Shown here: positions 1,484-17,752 of the stretch, piece by piece | Numbering within the stretch: position 1 is the stretch's first letter | Layout of the letters: every line of letters begins with the position of its first letter | Source of the DNA: Bacillota bacterium | GTDB lineage: Bacteria; Bacillota; Bacilli; Bu12 | Reading direction: 5' to 3' | NCBI GenBank assembly: GCA_014896485.1 | Contig: JADBKH010000007.1 | Span: 1 to 64,000, forward strand | Length of the DNA stretch: 64,000 nucleotides | Position numbers and translations under genes: made by a program | Notes under the pieces: model-generated | The model's input: only the letters and a program-made list of their open reading frames with translations | What the model was told of the DNA's origin: nothing | Databases searched by the model: none

Positions 1484-2392
1484 ATGAGTGTTTCGGATTT
1501 TGAAGCGTATGTGGCGCAAGGAGGCAAAGTAGACGCGATGGATGAGATGCCCGATGAGTATCGTCAAGCGTTACTCAAAACCATCTCATTCCAAGCGTTG
1601 GCGGAAGTAGTCGGTGCACAAGTCTTTGCAGAGTGGTTGCCCAAGGCACCTACTTTTCTAAGAAAAATGATCTACACGGCCAAGATTCAAGATGAAATCG
1701 GACACGGACATGTACTCATGCGGGTTTGTGAAGATTTGGGGAAAAGCCGTTATGAAATCATGGAGGATTATTTTTCGGGTCGGTTAAAGCTGCTGAGCGT
1801 TTTTCACTATCGAATCGAAGATTGGCTCCATTTTCCGGTCGTCTCTTTGATCAGCAATACGGCTGCAATTACCCAATTCGACTCTTTGGATCATGGAAGT
1901 TATCTTCCGTATGATCGCGCTTTAAAGAAGATTTCAAAGGAAGAGTCTTTTCATTATCATCAAGCCCTCGATCTCAGTCGTACCATTCTTCGATTCGGTA
2001 CAGACGAAGAACGGAAGAGACTCAATGAAGGGCTCAACATTTGGTGGCCACGAGTACTGGGGTATTTTGGACCTTCAGATGACTCCTATTACAGGGAAAC
2101 TCGGAGTTACAAGTACCACATCAAAGTCGATTCCAACGATACGATTCGGCAGCGCTGGATTGACCGCATCGTTTCGGTTTTGAAAAGGCTCGGTCTTACT
2201 GTAGACGATCCACTGCTTCGCAAAGACGAGCAGACCGGGCGATGGAGCTATACGCCTCCCGACTGGGAAGAATGGAAGAATGTTTCCAACGGACATGGTC
2301 CTTTTTCGGAGTATTGGCTCCAAAAGACAAAAGAAGAGTACTACAAGCACGAGTGGGTGCGGAAACTACTTGAAGAAAAACAAGCGGCATGA
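1484..2392 (+). CDS. paaA: ring 1,2-epoxidase catalytic subunit, PaaA-like
   Basis: A 302-residue homologue of PaaA, the di-iron oxygenase subunit that epoxidises the ring of phenylacetyl-CoA; the E. coli protein has 309 residues. The ferritin-like di-iron site is visible as KIQDEIGHGH near residues 68-76 and KEESFHYHQ near 161-169. The family motifs FGPSDD and WWPRV are also present. It is first in an operon with paaB, paaC and paaD, with paaB starting ten bases downstream. Family knowledge says it acts with PaaC as a heterodimer and needs electrons from a PaaE-type reductase, which is not encoded nearby. Benzoyl-CoA or a related thioester is also possible as substrate, given the neighbouring ligase. 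Confidence 0.9.
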   Translation: MSVSDFEAYVAQGGKVDAMDEMPDEYRQALLKTISFQALAEVVGAQVFAEWLPKAPTFLRKMIYTAKIQDEIGHGHVLMRVCEDLGKSRYEIMEDYFSGRLKLLSVFHYRIEDWLHFPVVSLISNTAAITQFDSLDHGSYLPYDRALKKISKEESFHYHQALDLSRTILRFGTDEERKRLNEGLNIWWPRVLGYFGPSDDSYYRETRSYKYHIKVDSNDTIRQRWIDRIVSVLKRLGLTVDDPLLRKDEQTGRWSYTPPDWEEWKNVSNGHGPFSEYWLQKTKEEYYKHEWVRKLLEEKQAA

Positions 2393-2401
2393 GGTGAGCC
2401 A

Positions 2402-2722
2402 ATGGTTGAACCTTACGAAGTTTTTTTGCAGCGTAAACGAGAGGATCGTGCGGTTCATGTGGGCAGCGTTGAAGCCTACTCTTCTGAAAACGCGCTGGAG
2501 ACCGCAAAAGAGATTTATGCTCGCCGAGATATCTGTTTTCGAATCGTAGTGGTTCCGCGATCATGCATGCGGGCTACTTCTTCAGAGGAAGCAGTTTTGT
2601 TTCAGTTATCATTTGCCAAGCAATATCGCAGACCTGCTTTCTTTTCGAAGCGAATGCAGGGTATGAGCGATGAGCCTCCCATTCTTGTCGACGAGTGGAG
2701 GAGTATCGATGAGACCACCTGA
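2402..2722 (+). CDS. paaB: ring 1,2-epoxidase subunit PaaB
   Basis: A 106-residue protein matching the small PaaB subunit (opening VEPYEVFLQRKREDRAVHVGSV, with the typical NALETAKEIYARRD stretch). PaaB bridges PaaA-PaaC heterodimers in the epoxidase complex and carries no cofactor. The N-terminal two thirds are conserved, and the C-terminal tail with Phe and Arg residues is of normal length. It lies ten bases after paaA and overlaps paaC by 14 bases, which suggests translational coupling. Confidence 0.88.
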   Translation: MVEPYEVFLQRKREDRAVHVGSVEAYSSENALETAKEIYARRDICFRIVVVPRSCMRATSSEEAVLFQLSFAKQYRRPAFFSKRMQGMSDEPPILVDEWRSIDETT

Positions 2723-3413
2723 GCAAGCAGAAAAAGACGAACGCTTATTTTACTGGGCCGACGAAGAATACATGGTCGGTCAGCAGCTGGTAACACAGAC
2801 GGGCCTTTATGGACCTGATTTGGAGGAGGCTGTCACGATAGGTTCGATGGCTCAGGACCATTTGGGATATGCATACCAGCTGTTGAAACATCTTGTCTCC
2901 TCAGAGGATCGGGCGATCGATCGATATGTCTACGAGCGCAGTCCAGAGGAATACCATCTGGGACTTTTAGCGCAAGCCTGGGATCCATCGGATTGGGCTC
3001 TGATCGTCGCCAAGGAATATCTGTATGACTCTGTCTGTTTCGTCCGCGCTCAAGACTTAAAAGAGAGCGATTCGATGTTTTCTGGTTTGGCGGAGATGAT
3101 GTTGCGTGAAACGGACTTCCGAATTCGCCATTGGCGCGAGTGGCTGCGCACCCTTGGAAATTTGTCCGAAGGGAGGGAACGTGTCAACAAAGCGCTCGCC
3201 TTTGTTTTACCGATGGCGCAGCAAAGTCTGACACTTCGAGACGGCCGCGGAAGATGGTTTGAGTCGTGCGTTGAAGAGTTAGAGGCGGCTGGATATGCCA
3301 TCCCCAACCCGATCGGTTTTCCTACCGTTTCAGGAGTGCTTTCTACGACTCGGGAATTGCTCGAAGACGCGCATGGTTACTATCGCACACACCCAGAGTG
3401 GGTATGGGGGTGA
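2709..3413 (+). CDS. paaC: ring 1,2-epoxidase structural subunit PaaC
   Basis: A 234-residue PaaC homologue, a ferritin-like helical protein that has lost the di-iron site and holds PaaA in the epoxidase complex. The AQDHLGYAYQLL segment near residues 54-65 and HWREWLRTLG in the middle are typical. ATG at 2709 is chosen as start because GGAGGAG lies five bases upstream; the longer frame from 2670 lies inside paaB without a ribosome site. It overlaps the end of paaB by 14 bases, and paaD follows after five bases. Confidence 0.88.
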   Translation: MRPPEQAEKDERLFYWADEEYMVGQQLVTQTGLYGPDLEEAVTIGSMAQDHLGYAYQLLKHLVSSEDRAIDRYVYERSPEEYHLGLLAQAWDPSDWALIVAKEYLYDSVCFVRAQDLKESDSMFSGLAEMMLRETDFRIRHWREWLRTLGNLSEGRERVNKALAFVLPMAQQSLTLRDGRGRWFESCVEELEAAGYAIPNPIGFPTVSGVLSTTRELLEDAHGYYRTHPEWVWG

Positions 3414-3418
3414 AACCG

Positions 3419-3901
3419 ATGAGCACTGATGTAGACGCGCGAACGATTTGGGAAAGTGTCGAAGGCGTGGAGGACCCAGAACTCCCCATTACCATAGGAG
3501 GGCTTGGAATTGTCGAGGAAATTAAACAACAAAATGGGGAGGTAGAGGTTCACCTCGTTCCGACATTCGTAGGCTGTCCGGCACTCAATGTGATTGAAAA
3601 ACAAGTAAAGGAGAGGGTTGCGGAGATTCCTGGTGTACGTTCGGTTTCAGTCCATTGGGATTTTTCGACCAAATGGAGTCGTGATCGCATTTCAGATTCA
3701 GCTGCCCGAGGCCTTCGAGAGTACGGAGTAGAACGTCCGCAATCGGATGAAATTTGTTGTCCGTATTGCAAAAGCACTCGAGTGCACATCGAGTCCTCCT
3801 ATGGCCCAAGTCTCTGCCGGTCGGTTTACTTTTGTGACGATTGCCACAATCCATTTGAGACCATCAAGGTTTCTTCTCCACGTAGAGAGGTGCTCAATTG
3901 A
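3419..3901 (+). CDS. paaD: PaaD-like Fe-S assembly protein of the epoxidase
   Basis: A 160-residue protein with an N-terminal MIP18/DUF59 domain (VEDPELPITIGGLGIV, with FVGCPALNVIEKQV carrying the conserved Cys). A C-terminal zinc ribbon follows (CCPYCKSTRV and FCDDCHNPF). This is the PaaD architecture, thought to help mature the iron-dependent parts of the phenylacetyl-CoA epoxidase. ATG at 3419 follows a G-rich ribosome site at 3406-3410; a GTG at 3410 overlapping the paaC stop is the alternative start. The next gene starts with TTG inside the stop codon (TTGA). Where paaE is present it usually follows paaD; here an isomerase/hydratase does. Confidence 0.85.
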   Translation: MSTDVDARTIWESVEGVEDPELPITIGGLGIVEEIKQQNGEVEVHLVPTFVGCPALNVIEKQVKERVAEIPGVRSVSVHWDFSTKWSRDRISDSAARGLREYGVERPQSDEICCPYCKSTRVHIESSYGPSLCRSVYFCDDCHNPFETIKVSSPRREVLN

Positions 3902-6425: not shown

Positions 6426-8120
6426 ATGAAAGACCATTACCCTACTCTTGAAACGGTCCCGATGGACTGGCTTGTCTCTCCGGAGATGCAGCCTGAATAT
6501 TTGGAGCTCCTGGGATATGATGTTCCAGAAATGACCAATCTTGCCGAGCTTTTTGTAGACAATCGGGTGAGAGAAGGGCTTGGAGAGCACATCGCTGTGA
6601 TCCAAGCCGATGACGATCAGCGCTATACGTATAACGATCTCATGCATGTTAGCATGCGCTTGGCGCATGTACTTAAAAACCTAGGAGTTTTGCCGGGGGA
6701 TCGGGTGGCTATCCGATCCCCCAATCGTGTTGAGGCGTTGACCATGTTTCTCGCAATTTGGCGCGTGGGAGGGATCGCTGTCCTCACTCCGCCGCAAGCC
6801 CGGGCGTCGGAACTGCCGTTCTTCTTAAACGACACCTTGGCGAAAGTGCTGTTTGTCGCAAATAAGGGCGATTATATCGGTGAAACTTTAAAGTGTCAGT
6901 CTGAGTTTCAATCGGTAAGGCATATCGTGGCTTTTCCAGACAATACGGGTACCCCTTATCTCTCTTTGGCGGCGCTTTTGGAAGGTGTTCCCGACTTCTT
7001 TGAAAATCAGTCCATGCCACGCGATTCTTTGGCGGTAATCTGGCACACAGGGGGGACGACAGGTGTTGCCAAAGCCTGCTACCATACGATTCGCCGCGTT
7101 GTCCTCGCGGGATACGCAGGGGCCATAGGTTATGGGGTGTGCGCGGGCGATGTGCATATGATGCCTGCACCTCTGGGGCATGCCGCAGGGTGGCTCTCTC
7201 GCACCAACCTTTCGTTGCTTCATGGAATCACTTTTGTAGAACTTGAAGACTTCACGGATTATTCAAAAATCTTGCGCGCGATTGGTAAGTACCATGTCAC
7301 GTGGTTTATTGCGTTGGCAACCAGTTGGGTTGGGATGTTACATGCATACGAAGAAAGCCCCGGTACGTACAATTTGTCCTCTCTTCAGAGAGCCTACGCT
7401 CCTTTCATCTCTGCCACCGGGGGATGGCTTTACAATGCATGGAAAAACCTGGGGTTCACATTGCTCAATCCGATGGGAAGTACGGCCTTCGCAACTTGGT
7501 TTATTGCTCCCCCATTAAACCAAACAGTTCCCCCGATGTGCCTGGGGAGGCCGAATCCAGGGTACGAAGTACGCATCGTAGATGCAGAATCACAGCATTT
7601 GCAGAATGTCGCTACGGGAGAGATCGGGCGTATCGCTCTCCGAGGTTGTTCTGGACTTACGTATTGGAACAGACCAGAGGTTCAAAATCGAGATGTTCGC
7701 GAAGGGTGGGTTGTCTTAGACGATCTGGGTAAGCAAGATGAGGAAGGGAACCTGTGGTATATGGGGCGCGCGGATATGATGATATCTACCGCCGGGTATA
7801 AAGTTGCGCCGGTAGAGGTAGAAGATGTGATTTCGACACATCCGGCTGTGGAAGAGGTTGCGGTGACGAGTGCTCCGGATGCGGTTCGGGGTGAAGTGGT
7901 GATGGCCTGGATAGTACCCAAAAAAGAGGTGCACCCGGATGCTGCACTTGTAGAAGAGATCCAAAACTACGTAAAAGAGCGTATTTCACCTTACAAGTAC
8001 CCGCGACGCGTCGCTTTTGTGAAAGAGCTTCCACATGATCCGGTAGGCAAGATCATCGTCAAGCTTTTGAAAAACTGGGCGTCGTCTGAAAAGGAACCAG
8101 AAGGTCTTCTATATTGGTGA
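6426..8120 (+). CDS. acyl-CoA ligase, benzoate/2-aminobenzoate-CoA ligase type
   Basis: A 564-residue member of the acyl-adenylate-forming family. The P-loop-like motif WHTGGTTGVAKACYHT is near residues 206-221. The A5-type segment NPMGSTAFATWF, the A8 region around GRADMMISTAGYKVAPVEVED, and the C-terminal lysine in DPVGKIIVK are all present. The N-terminal part (YTYNDLMHVSMRLAHVLKNLGVLPGDRVAIRSPN) resembles benzoate- and 2-aminobenzoate-CoA ligases much more than PaaK, which is shorter and has a different fold order. A ring carboxylate is therefore the likely substrate. The start at 6426 has AAGGAGG a few bases upstream. A 68-base AT-rich gap separates it from the paa operon and could hold its own promoter. 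Confidence 0.85.
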   Translation: MKDHYPTLETVPMDWLVSPEMQPEYLELLGYDVPEMTNLAELFVDNRVREGLGEHIAVIQADDDQRYTYNDLMHVSMRLAHVLKNLGVLPGDRVAIRSPNRVEALTMFLAIWRVGGIAVLTPPQARASELPFFLNDTLAKVLFVANKGDYIGETLKCQSEFQSVRHIVAFPDNTGTPYLSLAALLEGVPDFFENQSMPRDSLAVIWHTGGTTGVAKACYHTIRRVVLAGYAGAIGYGVCAGDVHMMPAPLGHAAGWLSRTNLSLLHGITFVELEDFTDYSKILRAIGKYHVTWFIALATSWVGMLHAYEESPGTYNLSSLQRAYAPFISATGGWLYNAWKNLGFTLLNPMGSTAFATWFIAPPLNQTVPPMCLGRPNPGYEVRIVDAESQHLQNVATGEIGRIALRGCSGLTYWNRPEVQNRDVREGWVVLDDLGKQDEEGNLWYMGRADMMISTAGYKVAPVEVEDVISTHPAVEEVAVTSAPDAVRGEVVMAWIVPKKEVHPDAALVEEIQNYVKERISPYKYPRRVAFVKELPHDPVGKIIVKLLKNWASSEKEPEGLLYW

Positions 8121-8180
8121 ACCCACAAAGGAACACGGTCAGAGTCAGATTTTAATCAATACCTTTTGGAAGGTGTAAAA

Positions 8181-8930
8181 ATGGATTTTGGGCTTGGTGG
8201 GAAACGCATTCTAGTGACCGGTGCGGGGAAAGGAATCGGAGCGGCGATCGCGCTTTCTTTGGTGGAAGAAGGGGCCGTTCCCTTAGTGCATGTTCACCGT
8301 TTCGATGCTGAGGTGGATACTCTGCGACAAAAGATCGCCGCGAAATGCCCCGAAGCTCTATTCATTCAAGCGGATTTGGAAATCCAGTCGGATGTGGAGC
8401 GTTTGGCGGAAGAAGCGATTTCATCTGGACCAGTCTACGGTGTGGTGCACAATGCCGGCTGGGCGAACAACGGGCGGTTCATGGAAAGCGCCAAAGAGGA
8501 ATGGCAAAAGACGGTACAAGTCGATCTGTTGGCGATCATGACGTTGACCCAACGATTGCTTCCTGAAATGCAAAAGGCTGGTCGCGGACGTATCCTTCAT
8601 ATTGTGGGAGATTCGGCTCGCGTCGGAGAACGTGGTCTGAGTGTTTCTACAGCAGCGCGTGGAGGCGTGCTTGCCTTTGGAAAATCGTTGGCACGAGAAA
8701 TAGGCCGAGAGCAGATCACCGTCAATACGGTCGCTTTAGGATTGATTCAGACGCCTTCTACCCAGTGGTTGACCCCAGAATTGGAGCAAAAGGCCGCTCG
8801 AAATTACCCGATGGGTCGACTCGGGCGCATAGAGGACGTGGTTCCCGCGATCTTGTTTCTGTTGTCGGAAGGAGCCGGATGGATTACCGGACAGACTCTC
8901 TCTGTCAATGGAGGATACAGTATGATTTGA
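8181..8930 (+). CDS. BadH-like SDR protein lacking the catalytic residues
   Basis: A 249-residue short-chain dehydrogenase-like protein, closely parallel to the BadH-type enzyme at 16994 and alignable to it without gaps over the active site. The nucleotide-binding motif TGAGKGIG (13-20) and HNAGW (90-94) are intact. The four catalytic positions are not: Asn115 is Asp, Ser143 is Gly, Tyr156 is Ser (codon TCT at 8646) and Lys160 is Arg. ITGQTLSVNGGYSM closes the protein normally. ATG at 8181 has GGAAGG eight bases upstream. It lies between the ring-acid ligase and the BadI-like gene. It may bind a nucleotide or thioester without ordinary dehydrogenase chemistry, or form mixed tetramers with an active partner. 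Confidence 0.85.
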   Translation: MDFGLGGKRILVTGAGKGIGAAIALSLVEEGAVPLVHVHRFDAEVDTLRQKIAAKCPEALFIQADLEIQSDVERLAEEAISSGPVYGVVHNAGWANNGRFMESAKEEWQKTVQVDLLAIMTLTQRLLPEMQKAGRGRILHIVGDSARVGERGLSVSTAARGGVLAFGKSLAREIGREQITVNTVALGLIQTPSTQWLTPELEQKAARNYPMGRLGRIEDVVPAILFLLSEGAGWITGQTLSVNGGYSMI

Positions 8931-9157: not shown

Positions 9158-9964
9158 ATGGCATACGAAGATATTCTTTACCAGAAGAACGAGGGCATTG
9201 CCACCATTACGATCAATCGTCCCCAGGTCATGAATGCTTTTCGTGATATGACGGTCAACGAGATGATCGATGCGTTTTACGACGCATGGGATGACAATGA
9301 GATCGGTGTGGTGGTTTTGACCGGAGCCGGAGATCGAGCTTTTTGTTCGGGCGGCGATCAAAAAGTACGCGGAGAAGGGGGATACGGGGCTTCTGGAGGT
9401 CGGGCCATGGGCATAGGTCTTGACGTGTTGACTCTCCATGAAGTGATTCGAGACATTCCCAAACCCGTGCTTGCCGCGGTCAACGGTTACGCCATCGGTG
9501 GAGGCAATGTACTGGTAACCGTGTGTGATCTGGCCATTGCTGCGGAGAGTGCGAAACTGGGACAGAGTGGGCCCAAAGTGGGTAGTTTCGACGCGGGATA
9601 TGGAACGGCGTATCTGGCGCGGGTGGTGGGAGAGAAACGGGCGCGAGAGATCTGGTATCTCTGTCGTCAATACACTGCTCAAGAAGCGTATCAGATGGGA
9701 ATGGTTAATAAAGTTGTTCCTCTCGACAGGCTGATGGAAGAAGCTTACGCATGGGCGAGAGAGATTCTGGAGAAAAGTCCGTATGCGATTCGCATGTTGA
9801 AAGCGTCGTTTAATGCGGACAGTGCCAACATAAAAGGGATCGACGAGATGGCACTGGGGGCTTTGGCGCTTTATTACGATACCGATGAAGCAATGGAGGG
9901 GCGCAATTCATTTGTTGAAAAACGCAAGCCCGATTTCCGAAAATTTTATCATAGAAATAACTAA
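9158..9964 (+). CDS. badI: ring-opening hydrolase / Dieckmann-type crotonase (BadI/MenB family)
   Basis: A 268-residue crotonase-superfamily protein of the BadI/MenB branch. [48 protein letters not shown] and the ending EKRKPDF are branch hallmarks. BadI opens 2-ketocyclohexane-1-carboxyl-CoA to pimeloyl-CoA; MenB runs a similar Dieckmann reaction in the opposite sense to make dihydroxynaphthoyl-CoA. Branch traits are mixed: NAFRDMT, GGGNVL and YYDTDE look BadI-like, while GGDQKVRG and [12 protein letters not shown] look MenB-like. No other menaquinone gene is nearby, whereas BadH, acyl-CoA dehydrogenase, hydratase and thiolase genes are, so BadI function is preferred. ATG at 9158 follows GAAGGGAG by seven bases. 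Confidence 0.75.
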
Positions 9965-10005: not shown

Positions 10006-10035
10006 GTGAACATGTGTTCTATGGAGGAGAACCCT

Positions 10036-11241
10036 ACGAGAGAAGCGTTCATCGTCGATGCTGTACGCACGCCCATTGGACGCCATGGCGGGGCTTTGGC
10101 AAGTGTGCGTCCAGACGACTTAGCCGCGTTGGTCATTCGGGCGCTGGTCGATCGCAATCGATTAGTGGAAGACACGATTGATGATGTCTATTTTGGCTGT
10201 GCCAACCAAGCCGGCGAGGACAATCGCAATGTTGCGCGTATGGCACTTTTATTGGCTGGGCTACCGACGAGCGTACCTGGAGCGACTGTAAACCGGCTTT
10301 GCGGTTCTGGTCTAGAGACCGTAGCTGAAGCTGCGCGTGCAGTCATGGTAGGGGAAGGAGACCTGTTCATTGCAGGTGGCGTCGAAAGAATGACGCGGGC
10401 CCCCTACGTTTTGCCAAAACCCGAGCGTGGCTTTGAGCGAGGTATGAGAACACTGTTCGATACAACCCTTGGTTGGCGTATGGTCAATCCAAAAATGCCA
10501 TCTTTGGGGTATGATCCGATCGAGATGGGTGAAACAGCGGAGAATGTCGCTGAACAATACAATATTTCACGCGAATCGCAAGATCGTTTTGCTTTCGAGA
10601 GCCAGCAAAAGACAGCACGAGCCATGCGTGAAGGCTCCTTCGAAGATGAGATCGTCCCTGCTTCCGTGCCGCAGCGAAAAGGGACGCCCAAGTTGGTCAT
10701 CCAAGACGAGCATCCACGCCCGCAAACGACAATAAAGGATCTGGCCAAGTTAAAGCCAGCTTTTCGAGAAAATGGAACGGTCACAGCCGGAAATTCCTCA
10801 GGAATTAATGATGGAGCGACAGCGGTACTGGTCATGTCGCAGGAAAAAGTGGCTCAGCTCGGCTTGACCCCCCTGGCGCGTATCCTTACGACAGCGACGG
10901 CTGGTGTTCATCCCAATTTTATGGGGCTAGGACCCATCCCTGCGACGCAAAAAGCATTAAAGAGAGTGGGACTTTCGATTTCTGATCTGGATCTGATCGA
11001 ACTCAACGAAGTTTTTGCCGCTCAATCTCTTGCATGCATTCAAGAACTTGGTCTTCCCATCGAGACAGTAAACGTCCATGGTGGCGCGATTGCACTCGGT
11101 CACCCATTGGGATGCAGTGGGGCAAGAATCTTGACCACCCTTGTCCATGAGATGAAGCGTCGGCTAACGCGCTATGGCCTGGCCACGATGTGCATTGGGG
11201 TTGGCCAAGGAATTGCGATGGTAGTGGAACGTAACAACTGA
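10036..11241 (+). CDS. 3-oxoacyl-CoA thiolase, PcaF/PaaJ type (apparent ACG start)
   Basis: A thiolase of about 401 residues with classical catalytic groups: NRLCGSG (nucleophilic Cys), ELNEVFAAQSL, GHPLGCSGAR and CIGVGQGI. Opening residues REAFIVDAVRTPIGRHGGAL and the CANQAGEDNRNVARMA segment match 3-oxoadipyl-CoA thiolases (PcaF, PaaJ). These release acetyl-CoA from dicarboxylyl-CoA intermediates, which also suits pimeloyl-CoA beta-oxidation after BadI. The start is odd. GGAGGAG at 10023-10029 points to ACG at 10036, exactly where homologues begin. In-frame GTG 10006, ATG 10012 and ATG 10021 lie before or on top of that site. If ACG is not used, ATG 10021 or 10012 would add 5-8 residues. 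Confidence 0.85.
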   Translation, partial: TREAFIVDAVRTPIGRHGGALASVRPDDLAALVIRALVDRNRLVEDTIDDVYFGCANQAGEDNRNVARMALLLAGLPTSVPGATVNRLCGSGLETVAEAARAVMVGEGDLFIAGGVERMTRAPYVLPKPERGFERGMRTLFDTTLGWRMVNPKMPSLGYDPIEMGETAENVAEQYNISRESQDRFAFESQQKTARAMREGSFEDEIVPASVPQRKGTPKLVIQDEHPRPQTTIKDLAKLKPAFRENGTVTAGNSSGINDGATAVLVMSQEKVAQLGLTPLARILTTATAGVHPNFMGLGPIPATQKALKRVGLSISDLDLIELNEVFAAQSLACIQELGLPIETVNVHGGAIALGHPLGCSGARILTTLVHEMKRRLTRYGLATMCIGVGQGIAMVVERNN

Positions 11242-11250
11242 CCACCTATG

Positions 11251-11279
11251 TTGACTGCTGCGTGAAGAGTTATTCGAAT
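11251..11279 (+). promoter_or_regulatory. probable promoter before the MmgE/PrpD gene
   Basis: TTGACT at 11251-11256 and TCGAAT at 11274-11279 with 17 bases between. The predicted start point near 11286 would exclude the in-frame ATG at 11278 and favour ATG 11326. Confidence 0.45.
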
Positions 11280-11325
11280 GCAAGCGAAGAAATCACCTTT
11301 CATGTCGTTGGGAAGAAGGCTAAGT

Positions 11326-12708
11326 ATGGCAGCTTGGACAGCGCAAGTGAGTCACTGGGTCAGTCATTTGGACTTTGCCGCACTACCTGATCCGGTCATA
11401 GAGGCAGTACGGCGCGCTGTGCTTGATACGGTAGGTTGTCTGATGGCCGGTCGAAAAGAGCCAGTGACACAGATCTTGGAAGAGAAGGCGCTTTTGCAAG
11501 GTGGCCGCGAGGAAGCAACCTTGTTGGGTACCCATGTGCGCTTGCCCGCTGAGGTTGCCGCACTGGTCAACGGAGCAAGTGCACACGCCCTTGATTTCGA
11601 CGATGTCAACAACGCCGTTCAAGGGCATCCGAGCGTAGCTATTTTTCCTGCAGCACTTGCCGCTTGCGAATGGACCGACCGCGACGGGAAGGCGTTGATC
11701 TGCGGCTATGCCGCTGGATTTGAAGTGATGGCCAAACTTGGCGAAGCGATAGGCTACGGTCATTATGAAAAGGGTTGGCATCCTACCGTGACTTTGGGAG
11801 CACTGGGTGCTGCCGCTGCGGCGGGCAACGTGCTGCAGTTGACGCCACAGCAAATGGCGGTGGCATTAAGCCTGGCGGTCTCACAAGCAGCGGGTACACG
11901 CCAAAATTTTGGCACGATGACCAAGCCTTTTCACGCAGGCAATGCTGCCCGTATTGGCGTCTTATCGGCGCGCCTGGCCAAGGCGGGCTTTACAGCAGAT
12001 ACGCATATCCTGGAGGCGCCCTTCGGGTTTTTTGCACTGTACAGCGGAGAGCCAGTCGCAAAGGAGCAAGTATCCACTGCCTTGGCTTCCATTGGAAAAA
12101 AGTGGGCGCTGCTCGAACCAGGCGTGGATGTTAAGAAGTACCCCTGCTGCTACTGGACACATCGTGCTGCCGATGCAGCCTTGGCATTGCGTAAAGAAGA
12201 AGGCGTTCGGTCCGAGGAAATCGAGCAAATCGAAGTGGCTACGCCACCGGGCGGGTTGACAGCGCTGATCTATCCGCAGCCAACGACGGGTTTGGAGGGC
12301 AAGTTCTCCATGGAATATGTCGTCTCGGCTGCTTTTTACGATGGCGCCTTGACTTTTGCGACCTTCACCGATGAAGCGGTGCAGCGCCCTGCATTGCGCG
12401 CTTTGGAGACGAAGGTGAAAAAGGAAGAGCAACCCGCTTTGGCGGACGGGACTGCAACCACTCTCAACAGTGGCCATGTCGTAGTGCGGGTGCATTTGAC
12501 CGATGGGTGTACCGCCGAGCGAAGCGTGATACATCCCTCTGGTTCAGCAAAGCAGCCGCTAAGCTGGGAGCAATTGGTCGAGAAGTTTCGCGACTGTGTG
12601 GATCATGGGGAAGCGCAGTTAAACCTAAAGGTGGCTGTTGAGCGTATTGCAGCGCTGCAGGAGGAGAGCTCCATACGCGATTGGACCGCTTCCCTTGCTT
12701 CAGGCTGA
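11326..12708 (+). CDS. MmgE/PrpD family protein
   Basis: A 460-residue MmgE/PrpD-family protein. These include 2-methylcitrate dehydratase (PrpD), cis-aconitate decarboxylase and several uncharacterised dehydratases or epimerases. Family marks are AVLDTVGCLMAGR near the N-terminus, NGASAHALDFDD (about residues 82-93), HPSVAIFPAALA, KGWHPTVTLGALGAAAAAG, KPFHAGNAARIGVLSARLA and DVKKYPCCYWTHRAADAA. ATG at 11326 follows GGAAGAAGG by six bases; longer starts at 11278 and 11302 lack a site. It precedes a class III CoA-transferase and an HMG-CoA-lyase-like gene. That combination suggests handling of a branched dicarboxylate or tricarboxylate and its CoA ester. The substrate is unknown. Confidence 0.85.
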   Translation: MAAWTAQVSHWVSHLDFAALPDPVIEAVRRAVLDTVGCLMAGRKEPVTQILEEKALLQGGREEATLLGTHVRLPAEVAALVNGASAHALDFDDVNNAVQGHPSVAIFPAALAACEWTDRDGKALICGYAAGFEVMAKLGEAIGYGHYEKGWHPTVTLGALGAAAAAGNVLQLTPQQMAVALSLAVSQAAGTRQNFGTMTKPFHAGNAARIGVLSARLAKAGFTADTHILEAPFGFFALYSGEPVAKEQVSTALASIGKKWALLEPGVDVKKYPCCYWTHRAADAALALRKEEGVRSEEIEQIEVATPPGGLTALIYPQPTTGLEGKFSMEYVVSAAFYDGALTFATFTDEAVQRPALRALETKVKKEEQPALADGTATTLNSGHVVVRVHLTDGCTAERSVIHPSGSAKQPLSWEQLVEKFRDCVDHGEAQLNLKVAVERIAALQEESSIRDWTASLASG

Positions 12709-12781
12709 GTGGGTCCTGGATAGCATGCTGTGGGTTGCGGGGCACAAAAAGCGATACCCTCGTATCTGAAGGGAGGGGGAT

Positions 12782-13924
12782 GTGGGCATCCAGTTGCAAG
12801 GATTGCGCGTGCTTGATCTGACAACCAATATCTCTGGACCGACGCTGACGATGATCCTCGGGGGTCTCGGTGCAGATGTGGTCAAAGTCGAGCGCCCGGA
12901 AGGTGACGATGGGCGGCGGATGGGGCCGTATCTCAACGGCCACGGCACTTATTTTTTGGCGATCAACCGCGACAAGCGCTCCATCCTCGCCGATCTCAAA
13001 AGTGAAACGGGGGCCGCTTTGGTGCGTGCGCTTGCGCAGCAGGCCGATGTGTTGGTGGAAAACTTTCGGCCGGGTACAGCTGAACGGTTGGGCATCGGCT
13101 ACGAGCGTCTCTCACAGAGAAATCCTGGGCTGGTCTACTGCGCTATCTCTGCCTATGGAGAGGTGGGGCCCGATGCGGAGAAACCCGGCTATGATGCGGT
13201 GCTGCAGGCGCGCACGGGAGTGATGTCGATCACCGGTCCCCTCGAGGGAGAGCCGGTGCGTGCAGGCGTCTCCTTGCTCGACGGTGGCAGTGCCTTGTGG
13301 GGCGCCATTGGCGTCTTGGCGGCCTTGGTTCAGCGGCAGCAGACCGGCAAAGGGCAGCGCGTTGCCACCTCCCTCTTTGAGACGGGCGTCTCGTGGATGA
13401 ATTACCATCTGGTCGCTTACCAAGCGACAGGCGTCGACCCTCGTCCACAAGGTGCGAGTCATACCGGTTTTGCCCCCTATGGGCGGTTTGAGACACAGGA
13501 TGCGCCGGTTGTGATCGGCATTTCCAGTGACCGCCTTTTTCAAAAGCTTTGTCGCGCGGTAGGCCACGCGGAGTGGGCAGCAGATCCAGCCTATCTTCAC
13601 AATGCCGAGCGGTTGCAGCACCGTTCGGAGCTCGATGCTGCTCTCAATGCTGTATTGATGGAAAAACCCTATGCGTCCTGGGTTGAAGCATTTGAACGGG
13701 AAGGGGTGCCTTATGCGCCGATTCAGACCGCCTCCCAGGTACTCCATGATCCGCAGACTGCAGCGCTTCAAATGATGCAAGAGGTCGTTTTGCCAGATGG
13801 GACGCATGTGCAGTTGCCGCGGCTTCCCTTGCGTTTTGACAGCCACCGTCCACCCATCCGCCGGCCCCCGCCAGAGCTCGGCGCCGATCAGCAAGAGGTG
13901 CTACACGCCTTGGGGTGGGTGTAA
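12782..13924 (+). CDS. class III CoA-transferase (CaiB/BaiF family)
   Basis: A 380-residue family III CoA-transferase. These enzymes move CoA between carboxylic acids through an aspartyl-CoA intermediate; PGYDAVLQARTG near residues 136-147 carries the expected catalytic Asp. The N-terminal LQGLRVLDLTTNISGP and VVKVERPEGDDGR and the VENFRPGTAERLGIGYE segment are typical. The start is GTG at 12782 directly behind GAAGGGAGGGGGA. The length is near the family norm of about 400. It probably activates an acid produced or used by the MmgE/PrpD enzyme upstream. Strikingly G+C-rich compared with the paa genes. Confidence 0.87.
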   Translation: MGIQLQGLRVLDLTTNISGPTLTMILGGLGADVVKVERPEGDDGRRMGPYLNGHGTYFLAINRDKRSILADLKSETGAALVRALAQQADVLVENFRPGTAERLGIGYERLSQRNPGLVYCAISAYGEVGPDAEKPGYDAVLQARTGVMSITGPLEGEPVRAGVSLLDGGSALWGAIGVLAALVQRQQTGKGQRVATSLFETGVSWMNYHLVAYQATGVDPRPQGASHTGFAPYGRFETQDAPVVIGISSDRLFQKLCRAVGHAEWAADPAYLHNAERLQHRSELDAALNAVLMEKPYASWVEAFEREGVPYAPIQTASQVLHDPQTAALQMMQEVVLPDGTHVQLPRLPLRFDSHRPPIRRPPPELGADQQEVLHALGWV

Positions 13925-13940
13925 GTTTGCGGACGGCTTT

Positions 13941-13957
13941 AGAAGCATTATGCTTCT
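13941..13957. repeat. perfect short inverted repeat between CoA-transferase and lyase genes
   Basis: AGAAGCAT-T-ATGCTTCT, two 8-base arms around one central base, in the 92-base gap before the lyase gene. An operator is as likely as a weak terminator, since no T-run follows. Confidence 0.3.
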
Positions 13958-14016
13958 TATTAAACAGAGAAGCTGAAGCAGCGTAGAAGGGGAATCCAAA
14001 AGAGGAGTGTCTCTCG

Positions 14017-14901
14017 ATGACCTTGCCGCAACGAGTCACCCTGATCGACGTCTGCCTGCGTGATGGATTGCAGGACGAGTCGGTTTTTGTACCTACACAA
14101 GCCAAGCTGCAGCTGCTGGATGCCCTTGCGCGTGCCGGTGTTCTAGAAGCGGAAGTGACTTCTTTTGTCCATCCCAAATGGATTCCTCCCTTGGCCGATG
14201 CAGATGCGTTGGCTGCACGGTTGCCGAACCTTCCACCAATGCGTTTTTGGGCGCTGGTCCCTAACCTTAGGGGATATGAACGCAGCGGCAATGCCCCTCT
14301 TTTCGGCATCACCACCGTCTTGTCGGCGACCGATGCGCACAACCAGGCCAACCTAAACTGCACTTCCCAGGAATCGTTGCGACGCCTAAAGCCGGTCATT
14401 GCAGCGGCCAAAGCGGATGGCCGAAGCGTGCGTGCTGCCATCTCGGTAGTCTTTGGCTGTCCGTTTGAAGGCGAAGTGCCCCTTCAACGGGTCGTCGATC
14501 TCTGCGAACAGCTGACTGCTGCTGGAGCAGATGAATTGGTGCTCTGCGATACGATTGGCGTCGCCCATCCACGACAAGTGGCGGAAGTGATTGGACAAGT
14601 ACGCGCACGCTTGCCGGAGATGCCGCTGACGCTGCACCTGCACGATGCCCGCGGCTTCGGATTGGCCAATATGCTTGCTGGCCTTCAGGAAGGGATCACC
14701 CGCTTTGATACCTCTTTGGGCGGCTTTGGCGGCTGTCCGTATGCACCGGGGGCGCCAGGCAACCTCGCCACCGAACGCGCCAACACTTTTTTGACCGCAA
14801 TGGGCATTGCAACCGACATTGATCAGGCGGCCATCGAAGCGGCGGCTGTGCAGGCGAAGAGCGCTGTCGCTGCGGGAGAACCCATCGACACCAAAGCATA
14901 A
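14017..14901 (+). CDS. hydroxymethylglutaryl-CoA lyase-like enzyme
   Basis: A 294-residue TIM-barrel protein of the HMG-CoA lyase/DRE-TIM group. Metal and catalytic marks are DVCLRDGLQDE (about residues 11-21, with the usual Arg-Asp pair), VTSFVHPKWIPPLADAD, LCDTIGVAHP, LHLHDARGFGLAN and GGFGGCPYAPGAPGNLATE. These lyases split a 3-hydroxy-3-methyl-acyl-CoA into acetyl-CoA and a keto acid. In leucine breakdown the substrate is HMG-CoA, but no methylcrotonyl-CoA carboxylase is present here. The MmgE/PrpD and CoA-transferase neighbours hint at another 3-hydroxy-acid such as a citramalyl- or alkylmalyl-CoA. Start ATG at 14017 follows AGGAG. The acyl-CoA dehydrogenase begins 16 bases downstream. 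Confidence 0.85.
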   Translation: MTLPQRVTLIDVCLRDGLQDESVFVPTQAKLQLLDALARAGVLEAEVTSFVHPKWIPPLADADALAARLPNLPPMRFWALVPNLRGYERSGNAPLFGITTVLSATDAHNQANLNCTSQESLRRLKPVIAAAKADGRSVRAAISVVFGCPFEGEVPLQRVVDLCEQLTAAGADELVLCDTIGVAHPRQVAEVIGQVRARLPEMPLTLHLHDARGFGLANMLAGLQEGITRFDTSLGGFGGCPYAPGAPGNLATERANTFLTAMGIATDIDQAAIEAAAVQAKSAVAAGEPIDTKA

Positions 14902-14917
14902 AATGGGAGGTGAAGGG

Positions 14918-16075
14918 TTGCAGCTGACCGCAGAACAGACAGCACTGTTAGAGACGGTACGCAGCTTTGCCCAGCGGGAGATCAAGCCGATTGTCCATAC
15001 CTACGAGGCCGAAGATCGCTATCCCTCTGAAATTGTAGAGAAGATGCAGGAGCTCGGGCTGTTCGGTTTAAACATCGCGCCCGAGTACGGCGGGGCGGGG
15101 GTCGACACCGTCACCTATGCGTTGGTCTTTGAAGAACTTTCTGCTGTCTGGATGAGTCTGGCGGGGATTTTGGGGACCCATGGCATCATGGCTTACGTGC
15201 TTCAACGCTTCGGCACTGAGGAACAGAAGCGCCGGCTGCTGCCACGCATGGCCAGCGGAGAGCTGCGCGGGGGATTGGGGTTGACCGAGCCCGATGCAGG
15301 TTCGGACGTGCAAAACCTCAAAACAACAGCAGTACGTCAGGGCGATCGCTACGTCTTAAACGGACAGAAGATGTTTATCACCAATTCCCGTTACGGGAGC
15401 GGGCTGCTCGTTTTGGCTCGCACCAATCCTTTGGCGGACAAGCCTTCTCATGGGATGAGCGCTTTTATCGTCGAGCATGACGAACAGACCCCTGGTTACA
15501 TCGTTCGTCGCCCCATTCACAAGCTTGGGTATAAGGGGGTCGAGACGTGCGAGCTCTCTTTTGAAGATCTGCAGGTGCCTCAAGAAAACCTGGTCGGGGG
15601 TGAAGAAGGCCATGGTTTTGCACAAGTGATGAGCGGGCTTGAAGTGGGACGCATCAATGTTGCGGCCCGTGCGGTGGGCGTTGCGCGGGCTGCTTTTGAA
15701 GAAGCTGTGCGTTACGCCCAACAACGCCAGACTTTCGGCCAGCCGATTGCGCAACATCAAGCGATTCAGCTGCTGTTGGCCGATATGTACACCCAGTTGA
15801 GCGCTGCGCGGCATCTGTACATCGACGCAGCCGAAAAGAAGGATCGGGGCCAACGGGCGGACCTGGAGGCCGGCATGGCCAAACTCTTTGCCAGTGAGAT
15901 GTGTGGCAAAGTGACCCTCGATGCCATGCGGATTCATGGCGGTTATGGATATACTACTGATTTCAATGTCGAGCGCTACTACCGTGATGCCCCGCTGATG
16001 ATCATCGGAGAAGGCACCAATGAGATCCAGCGTACTGTGATCGCCCGTCAACTTCTGCAGCGTTACAGAGTATAG
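14918..16075 (+). CDS. acyl-CoA dehydrogenase (candidate cyclohexanecarboxyl-CoA dehydrogenase)
   Basis: A 385-residue FAD-dependent acyl-CoA dehydrogenase. GGLGLTEPDAGSDVQNLKTTA and FITNSRYGSG are FAD-contact segments. RQTFGQPIAQHQAIQ, MRIHGGYGYTTDFNVERYYRDA and IIGEGTNEIQR (catalytic Glu position) complete the family set. TTG at 14918 is the best start, seven bases after GGAGG at 14906-14910; ATG at 14903 lies in front of that site. Followed by an enoyl-CoA hydratase (14 bases away) and a BadH-type dehydrogenase, it fits the first oxidation of cyclohexanecarboxyl-CoA (BadJ/AliB role) or of a straight-chain acyl-CoA. The role is inferred from neighbours. Confidence 0.85.
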   Translation: MQLTAEQTALLETVRSFAQREIKPIVHTYEAEDRYPSEIVEKMQELGLFGLNIAPEYGGAGVDTVTYALVFEELSAVWMSLAGILGTHGIMAYVLQRFGTEEQKRRLLPRMASGELRGGLGLTEPDAGSDVQNLKTTAVRQGDRYVLNGQKMFITNSRYGSGLLVLARTNPLADKPSHGMSAFIVEHDEQTPGYIVRRPIHKLGYKGVETCELSFEDLQVPQENLVGGEEGHGFAQVMSGLEVGRINVAARAVGVARAAFEEAVRYAQQRQTFGQPIAQHQAIQLLLADMYTQLSAARHLYIDAAEKKDRGQRADLEAGMAKLFASEMCGKVTLDAMRIHGGYGYTTDFNVERYYRDAPLMIIGEGTNEIQRTVIARQLLQRYRV

Positions 16076-16089
16076 GGTGGGGGAAACCA

Positions 16090-16902
16090 TTGGCTGTGCA
16101 GCTATCTGCTTGGGAGAGTCACCGCTGGAAGTTTCTTCTCGCGGAAAAGCTTGGTGATTTTGTTGCCTCGATTACCTTGAATCGCCCCGAAGTCCGCAAT
16201 GCTTTCCATTCAGCCATGGTCGAAGAATGGCTGGCCTGTTTTACCTTACTGGCCGATGAGCCTCAGGTACGTGCCGTGGTGATCAGTGGCGCAGGTGGGA
16301 GCTTTTGCGCTGGAGCCGACCTCAAGGAGCGCAATGCGCTGGATGTGCAGGCTTGGCATGCGCAACATCGCTTGTTTGACCGAGCGTTTGAGGCGCTGCG
16401 CAGTCTACCGATGATGACCATCGCTGCCGTAGAGGGAGCTGCAATGGGCGGTGGTTTCGAACTGGCGCTGGCTTGCGATCTCATGGTTGCTGCAGAAGGG
16501 GCCCGATTCGCCTTTCCTGAAGTCAAACGTGGCCTGATTCCTGGAGAAGGGGGCACCCAAGTGCTGGCACGACGGGTGGGTCCTGGGCGAGCCAAGCTTT
16601 ACTTGGCGAGTGGGCGGACGATCGATGCTGAGGAAGCCGAACGCATGGGGATTGCCGATCTATATGCACCTGCCGGGAAGGCGGTAGAAGTAGCCAGAGG
16701 ATTGGCGGACGAGATTGTGGTCAATGCGCCCCTTGCGGTGGCCCAGGCCAAACGTGCGGTTGACCTCGGTTTGGGCTTGCCGTTGGCCGAAGGTGTAGCG
16801 ATCGAGCGAGAGCTCTACCGTCCTTTGGTCGATACCCAAGATCGGCGGGAAGGGGTGCGGGCTTTTGTCGAAAAGCGTGCACCTCAGTTTGTCGGACACT
16901 AA
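16090..16902 (+). CDS. enoyl-CoA hydratase (BadK-like role)
   Basis: A 270-residue crotonase-fold hydratase. SFCAGADLKERN (oxyanion hole 1), AAVEGAAMGGGFELALACDL (oxyanion hole 2) and FPEVKRGLIPGEGGTQ with the first catalytic Glu are present. The second Glu position reads AKLYLASGRT and is not conserved. The ending REGVRAFVEKRAPQF is typical. TTG at 16090 follows a G-run ribosome site, 14 bases after the dehydrogenase stop. Between acyl-CoA dehydrogenase and BadH-type genes it is placed to hydrate cyclohex-1-ene-carboxyl-CoA, as BadK does. Substrate specificity cannot be read directly. Confidence 0.83.
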   Translation: MAVQLSAWESHRWKFLLAEKLGDFVASITLNRPEVRNAFHSAMVEEWLACFTLLADEPQVRAVVISGAGGSFCAGADLKERNALDVQAWHAQHRLFDRAFEALRSLPMMTIAAVEGAAMGGGFELALACDLMVAAEGARFAFPEVKRGLIPGEGGTQVLARRVGPGRAKLYLASGRTIDAEEAERMGIADLYAPAGKAVEVARGLADEIVVNAPLAVAQAKRAVDLGLGLPLAEGVAIERELYRPLVDTQDRREGVRAFVEKRAPQFVGH

Positions 16903-16993
16903 AGCAATGGAGAGAAATATCGGCAAGCAAAATGCGTGATCAAACGCATTGATCGCCCATTTCTACGGTGGGCTTTCAGAGGAGTGTATGGCG

Positions 16994-17752
16994 ATGAAAC
17001 GATTGGGCGGAAAAGTTTCGCTGATTACCGGCGCTGGACGTGGCATCGGCCGGGGGATTGCCGAAAAGTTTGCAGTTGAAGGTGCGCGGGTGGTTGTTGC
17101 CGATATTGACGAAACGGCCGCCAAAAAAAGTGCTGAAGAACTAACTTCTGCCTATCAGGTAGAGACGCTCGGCTTGTTTTGTGATGTCACCTCGCAAGAA
17201 TCGGTCAACCAAACTGTGGAACAGGTCAAACAGCGTTTTGGGCGAATCGATGTGTTGGTCAACAATGCGGGATGGGACAAGGTGGAGCCTTTCTTGGAGA
17301 GCGAAGAGAGAACCTGGGATCGTGTGATCCAAATCAATCTCTATGGTCTGTTGCATACGTGTAAGGCCGTCTTGCCCGAAATGATCGCACAAGGCAACGG
17401 CACGGTGATCAATATTGGTTCGGACGCCGGACGGGTGGGCTCCTCAGGAGAGGCGGTTTATTCGGCAACCAAAGGAGGAGTAATCGCGTTTACCAAAACA
17501 CTGGCGCGGGAGATGGCTCGGCATCAGATCAACGTCAATTGTGTCTGCCCAGGCCCGGCAGACACGCCGCTTTTTTCGGAGATCAGCTCGTACAACTCGA
17601 AGATTGCCGATGCCTTAAAGCGCAGCATTCCGTTTCGCCGCTTGGCTAAACCGCAAGATATTGCCAACGCCGTGGCTTTTTTGGCCTCGGATGAGGCGTC
17701 GTACATCACCGGACAGACGCTTTCAGTCAGTGGCGGATTGACCATGGTGTAG
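16994..17752 (+). CDS. badH: 2-hydroxycyclohexanecarboxyl-CoA dehydrogenase (BadH-type SDR)
   Basis: A 252-residue short-chain dehydrogenase with an intact catalytic set: Asn115, Ser143, Tyr156, Lys160. TGAGRGIG (12-19) binds NAD(P). NNAGWDKVEPF, SDAGRVGSSGEAVYSATKGG, CPGPADTPLF and SYITGQTLSVSGGLTM are unusually close to my memory of R. palustris BadH, which oxidises 2-hydroxycyclohexanecarboxyl-CoA to the 2-keto thioester for ring opening by BadI. ATG at 16994 sits nine bases after AGAGGAG; ATG 16988 is too close to that site. It follows a hydratase and precedes a GalT-like gene by 15 bases. The function is fairly confident given a BadI-like gene in the same island. Confidence 0.85.
   Translation: MKRLGGKVSLITGAGRGIGRGIAEKFAVEGARVVVADIDETAAKKSAEELTSAYQVETLGLFCDVTSQESVNQTVEQVKQRFGRIDVLVNNAGWDKVEPFLESEERTWDRVIQINLYGLLHTCKAVLPEMIAQGNGTVINIGSDAGRVGSSGEAVYSATKGGVIAFTKTLAREMARHQINVNCVCPGPADTPLFSEISSYNSKIADALKRSIPFRRLAKPQDIANAVAFLASDEASYITGQTLSVSGGLTMV

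Follow-up and report, generated by a model that had tools for sequence, protein, structure and literature searches.

The pSDR gene and its surroundings

The window analysed here is a stretch of 64,000 nucleotides from a Bacillota bacterium (contig JADBKH010000007.1). One of its genes, located between an acyl-CoA ligase and a crotonase gene (Table 1), encodes a protein that has the SDR fold and lacks the SDR catalytic tetrad, referred to as pSDR in the following. Its frame (8181-8930) is open throughout, giving 249 residues, and is preceded by a ribosome-binding-like sequence, in agreement with an earlier note on this DNA. The protein has the Rossmann-type fold and the length of about 250 residues of the SDR superfamily. 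The AlphaFold model (pLDDT 92.7) is confidently of this fold, and its best Foldseek matches were FabG-type dehydrogenases and other SDRs, with a TM of about 0.9. FabG-type models were also the best NCBIfam matches, and the score against the model of BadH (2-hydroxycyclohexanecarboxyl-CoA dehydrogenase, TIGR03206) was 155.5 bits, below the cut-off of 431.2.

Table 1. Features of the pSDR gene and neighbouring genes in the window
Feature	Position	Strand	Basis
AMP-forming acyl-CoA ligase, ending 60 bases before pSDR	6426..8120	+	
Ribosome-binding-like GGAAGGTG, 5 bases upstream of the pSDR ATG	8168..8175	+	Read from sequence
pSDR, SDR-fold protein without the SDR catalytic tetrad, 249 aa	8181..8930	+	Translation, alignment, AlphaFold
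Codons 13-20, TGAGKGIG; glycine-rich motif retained in the window protein	8217..8240	+	Alignment
Codon 115, Asp replacing tetrad Asn; D/C/T/G across the family	8523..8525	+	Alignment
Codon 143, Gly replacing catalytic Ser; Gly invariant in the family	8607..8609	+	Alignment
Codon 145, Ser, invariant in the family	8613..8615	+	Family alignment
Codon 156, Ser replacing catalytic Tyr; S/A/T/G across the family	8646..8648	+	Alignment
Codon 160, Arg replacing catalytic Lys; Arg invariant in the family	8658..8660	+	Alignment
Codon 186, Leu replacing Pro of the PG motif; Leu invariant in the family	8736..8738	+	Alignment
BadI/MenB-type crotonase	9158..9964	+	TIGR03210 370 bits, below cut-off; MenB models pass theirs
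Intact BadH-like SDR, candidate partner of pSDR	17003..17752	+	TIGR03206 306 bits, cut-off 431

When pSDR was aligned with the intact BadH-like SDR encoded in the same window (17003-17749; 38% identity), the Asn, Ser, Tyr and Lys of the tetrad were confirmed to have been replaced (N115D, S143G, Y156S and K160R). The comparison had been described as ungapped; this holds between residues 115 and 160, but short gaps occur near residue 82 and around residue 199. The nucleotide-binding motif and the fold are retained, as had been claimed. Among the classical SDR features, TGxxxGxG is thus present, whereas the Asn-Ser-Tyr-Lys tetrad is absent and the PG motif reads LG. The NNAG motif is HNAG, its first Asn being replaced by His and the NAG part being kept.

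The pSDR gene lies within a long run of genes on the same strand, including PaaA-, PaaC- and PaaD-like, thiolase, CoA-transferase, acyl-CoA dehydrogenase and BadH-like genes, and the BadH-like SDR gene is found 8 kb away, not adjacent. The PaaA-, PaaC- and PaaD-like genes are located at 1484-3901; PaaD scores above its NCBIfam cut-off, PaaA falls just short and PaaC is a weak match. A small ORF (2402-2722) occupies the PaaB position, and no PaaE-like reductase was noticed in this run. The Paa-like genes possibly encode an oxygenase that acts on something other than phenylacetyl-CoA. Downstream, the region 10006-17752 holds a 3-oxoadipyl-CoA-type thiolase (just below cut-off), an MmgE/PrpD-like gene (assigned by eye), a CoA-transferase, an HMG-CoA-lyase-type gene, an acyl-CoA dehydrogenase, a crotonase and the BadH-like SDR, and by its gene content looks like an alicyclic acid degradation cluster.

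Conserved replacements in the pSDR family

The family alignment comprised 19 members, namely the window copy, those of four other Bacilli genomes and those of Alphaproteobacteria (rhizobial plasmids and two genomes); it includes near-identical plasmid copies, and invariance was scored on ten representatives. Orthologues with an intact Ser-Tyr-Lys set, which would have spoken against a conserved loss, were not encountered, as none of the 19 members carries Asn115, Ser143, Tyr156 or Lys160. Gly143, Ser145, Arg160 and Leu186 occur without exception, both among the 19 and among the ten representatives. Variation is seen at position 156 (Ser, Ala, Thr or Gly) and at position 115 (Asp, Cys, Thr or Gly). 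Since Ser143 and Lys160 are each present in 27 of 27 intact comparison SDRs and Gly and Arg take their places in every pSDR, the replacements at 143, 156 and 160 go beyond chance. N115D alone is not diagnostic, because two intact SDRs of the window genome (L004 and L007) also have Asp115. Leu186 is likewise shared with the two nearest intact SDRs. Going by the alignment, the set of replacements is a trait of the family and not peculiar to the window copy.

Further conserved parts are the C-terminal segment TGQ...GG..M and residues 169-171, both invariant among the representatives. The alphaproteobacterial pSDRs all have TGxxxDxG instead of TGxxxGxG. The other members carry NNAG, apart from the one in Bacilli genome G241, which has NNAA. 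Many of the relatives retain an NY-x-RS stretch after strand 2, which we take to resemble the NADP(H) motif of FabG enzymes. This NADP(H)-type segment and the fold are what pSDRs have in common with the FabG-type 3-oxoacyl-ACP reductases, in which Ser-Tyr-Lys, unlike in pSDRs, is complete. The pSDR signature can be written GDS-x-R ... (S/A/T/G)xxxR. No chain in the PDB alignments inspected carries this signature, and hence no function can be transferred to pSDR from the PDB.

Occurrence and genomic setting

Among 400 genomes of the class to which the window genome belongs, three others have a close pSDR relative (G236, G020 and G241), and a further pSDR-bearing Bacilli genome, G1181, belongs to the order of G236. 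A profile search of Bacillota returned mostly ordinary SDRs and nothing above 260 bits beyond the window gene. In addition, pSDR genes were identified in 19 plasmid records of Rhizobium, Sinorhizobium, Agrobacterium, Aminobacter and Bradyrhizobium. A DNA signature revealed two more carriers (loci L065 and L066) among 289 alphaproteobacterial genomes and no pSDR in the 203 gammaproteobacterial or 217 actinobacterial genomes sampled. One further match (L063 in G967) has a stop in its frame and was attributed to chance. With carriers in few Bacilli and Alphaproteobacteria and none in the sampled Gammaproteobacteria and actinobacteria, the family is sporadic and known here from these two groups.

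The earlier note had suggested collecting orthologues next to acyl-CoA ligase and BadI genes, and pSDRs near BadI, BadH and ligase genes do carry the same substitution set. In G236, G1181 and G020, a BadI-like gene (64–68% identical to the window crotonase) and a BadH-like gene (61–68% identical to that of the window) are found less than 10 kb from pSDR. The ligase of G236 has cyclohexanecarboxylate-CoA ligase as its best match (520 bits, cut-off 792). In G1181 the acyl-CoA dehydrogenase between pSDR and BadI appears to be present only as a fragment, an ORF of 163 aa (L067:8846-9376), whereas it is full-length in G236. On the rhizobial plasmids, pSDR is located alongside xanthine-dehydrogenase-family genes, a crotonase and a ligase gene. 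The plasmid cluster is conserved in rhizobia (L025, L026, L068, L069 and L076), with pSDR, molybdenum-hydroxylase subunits, a lactonase-like MBL protein, a crotonase and a ligase. Inspection of ORFs suggested a similar setting, with a crotonase, ligase or CoA-transferase gene, in G241, L065 and L066; at the loci of these and the other numbered genomes, genes were named by their similarity to proteins of the window or by the reading of ORF starts. The pSDR genes thus belong to acyl-CoA ring-acid clusters, accompanied by BadI and an intact BadH in the window and three of the other Bacilli genomes, and by molybdenum-hydroxylase genes in Alphaproteobacteria. No BadH-type SDR was found within about 9 kb of pSDR at the alphaproteobacterial genome loci, in G241 and in several plasmid copies, which means that a linked SDR partner is not universal; on one plasmid the distance to an SDR is 8.4 kb.

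Descent and selection

A first tree that included very divergent SDRs split the pSDR clade, probably owing to long branches, and was repeated without them. With the diagnostic columns and long-branch rows removed, 13 of the 14 pSDRs tested formed one clade (support 96/92). The remaining one, from G241, was placed beside two intact SDRs (86/70), and a single clade of all 14 was not rejected (p-AU 0.3). The pSDR clade groups with intact SDRs of the ‘SDAGRxGE..LAVYAAAK’ type (joint group 99/95), exemplified by one on contig C48 of the window genome and one from Solimonas (L009). These share Leu186 with pSDR, but keep the catalytic residues.

The pSDRs had been regarded as BadH-like, and the resemblance is real in that they share with BadH the SDR fold, a similar length and BadI-type surroundings, and TIGR03206 is the best model for two pSDR relatives. 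Descent from BadH is, however, unsupported. The pSDRs score 156–218 bits against this model (cut-off 431), lack the catalytic Asn, Ser, Tyr and Lys, and fall outside the BadH sequences, which form a clade of their own (100/100). Judged by the tree, pSDR is not simply a duplicated BadH that decayed; it is nearer to another SDR group.

The dN/dS values (NG86) of the rhizobial pSDR copies, the relatives in which selection was assessed, were 0.04–0.13 in most pairs, pointing to strong purifying selection and not to neutral drift. Higher values in a near-identical Aminobacter pair (0.32) and in the most diverged pairs (0.20–0.27) are unreliable because of small counts or saturation. Six matched pairs were compared with the neighbouring enoyl-CoA hydratase (crotonase): in five of them pSDR had the lower dN/dS, and in the sixth the two values were about the same. 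No branch of the clade is as long as that of the window copy (1.63; its sisters have about 0.5), and some relaxation in this copy is possible. Of 46 positions without variation among nine other members, it keeps 39, at an overall identity of 38–44%, and has lost the other seven, N90H among them. When drift was simulated with all divergence unconstrained and indels left out, at most 1% of the frames were open at 60% identity and none of 400 at 44%. A random pseudogene was rejected as the sole account, given that the replacements are common to distant lineages and the frame is intact.

Possible roles of pSDR

Classical Ser-Tyr-Lys dehydrogenation by pSDR is very unlikely, judging from its residues. 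As the same replacements occur in distant bacteria and next to ring-acid genes, the clade does not simply consist of broken dehydrogenase copies and has probably retained its fold for a job other than ordinary dehydrogenation. Of the earlier proposal of a non-dehydrogenase role under selection, the conserved substitutions and the purifying selection in relatives stand, whereas the descent from BadH is unsupported; the 16994 protein, suggested for pull-downs, is a candidate partner through its place in the gene cluster.

Our first choice, held tentatively and at somewhat less than even odds, is that pSDRs are a conserved SDR-fold clade that may have abandoned the carbonyl/alcohol chemistry of Ser-Tyr-Lys and retained a modified pocket for a non-dehydrogenase role. 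Such a pocket would be lined by small residues at the former Ser and Tyr sites, the invariant Arg in place of Lys and the invariant Ser145. Ligands that could still bind there are NADP(H), a ring intermediate carried as acyl-CoA, or the two together, and pSDR would then serve a ring-acid pathway either by a step other than dehydrogenation or by binding a ligand. This reading is favoured because Gly143, Ser145 and Arg160 are invariant and because there are lineages without a linked intact SDR. Counting against it, the window copy is the fastest-evolving member, with its seven lost invariant positions. The more specific version, that pSDR is a non-redox (or unconventional) SDR-fold catalyst acting on ring-acid CoA thioesters with an Arg/Ser/Gly pocket, in alicyclic (BadI-type) as well as molybdenum-hydroxylase-type pathways, is rather unlikely.

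A close rival is that pSDR could be a non-catalytic subunit of a mixed SDR tetramer, shaping the stability, specificity or allostery of an active SDR, which in the window would be the BadH-like protein encoded from 17003. By analogy, this is a possibility to be taken seriously, with a chance of roughly one third. A solved precedent (7pcs) exists in BbsCD of toluene degradation, which von Horsten et al. (among the references of PMC10818641) reportedly described as an SDR tetramer containing pseudoenzyme subunits. Its BbsC subunit is an inactive SDR belonging to a CoA-thioester degradation pathway and a sequence relative of pSDR (7pcs_A was matched by the motif segment). In all four BadI-type Bacilli loci an intact BadH-like SDR and BadI are encoded less than 10 kb from pSDR, and the invariant TGQ...GG..M segment and residues 169-171 would suit a kept tetramer interface. 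However, BbsC shares one enzyme with the active BbsD, whereas pSDR has no adjacent partner gene, the window's own BadH-like gene included. A linked BadH-type SDR is also missing at G241, at the two alphaproteobacterial genome loci and at most plasmid copies inspected with long flanks. Furthermore, a scaffold has no need of invariant pocket residues and would be expected to let positions 143 and 160 drift, which argues for the retooled pocket.

It is improbable that pSDR is an NADP(H)-dependent enoyl- or dienoyl-CoA reductase with another acid/base set. The comparison is with 2,4-dienoyl-CoA reductase, another SDR in which the Tyr of YxxxK is missing and the Lys is retained. The Gly-rich motif of the window protein and the NYxRS-type residues of its relatives are consistent with such an activity, and Ser145, by its offset from residue 160, is presumably at the position of the catalytic Tyr of that enzyme. 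Nevertheless, the loss of Lys makes this the weaker reading, as pSDRs always have Arg160 where dienoyl-CoA reductase keeps Lys; there is no Tyr at 145 to replace the lost one, and all alphaproteobacterial pSDRs have TGxxxDxG.

Least probable, and by a rough estimate very unlikely, is that the window copy is a decaying gene, drifting while the family is functional elsewhere: its long branch and its lost positions (N90H and six others) would fit, but an intact frame of 249 codons hardly arises in the simulated drift, most family-invariant positions survive despite the low overall identity, and the pocket signature, the ribosome site and the operon-like position are kept.

Should the retooled pocket be catalytic, one of the largest enzyme superfamilies would gain a further chemistry; should pSDR be a partner subunit, the BbsCD finding would extend to another type of degradation pathway. 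A limited search of the open-access literature on SDR pseudoenzymes returned nothing on the pSDR family, and the plasmid records annotate its members generically as ‘SDR family oxidoreductase’ or ‘3-oxoacyl-ACP reductase family protein’. On this basis the clade appears undescribed as far as could be found. Taken in their classical sense, the names oxidoreductase and reductase are very unlikely to fit these proteins. The signature lets such proteins be recognised and their annotations corrected; as a DNA pattern, it picked out all ten pSDR loci and nothing else from a set of 60 loci.
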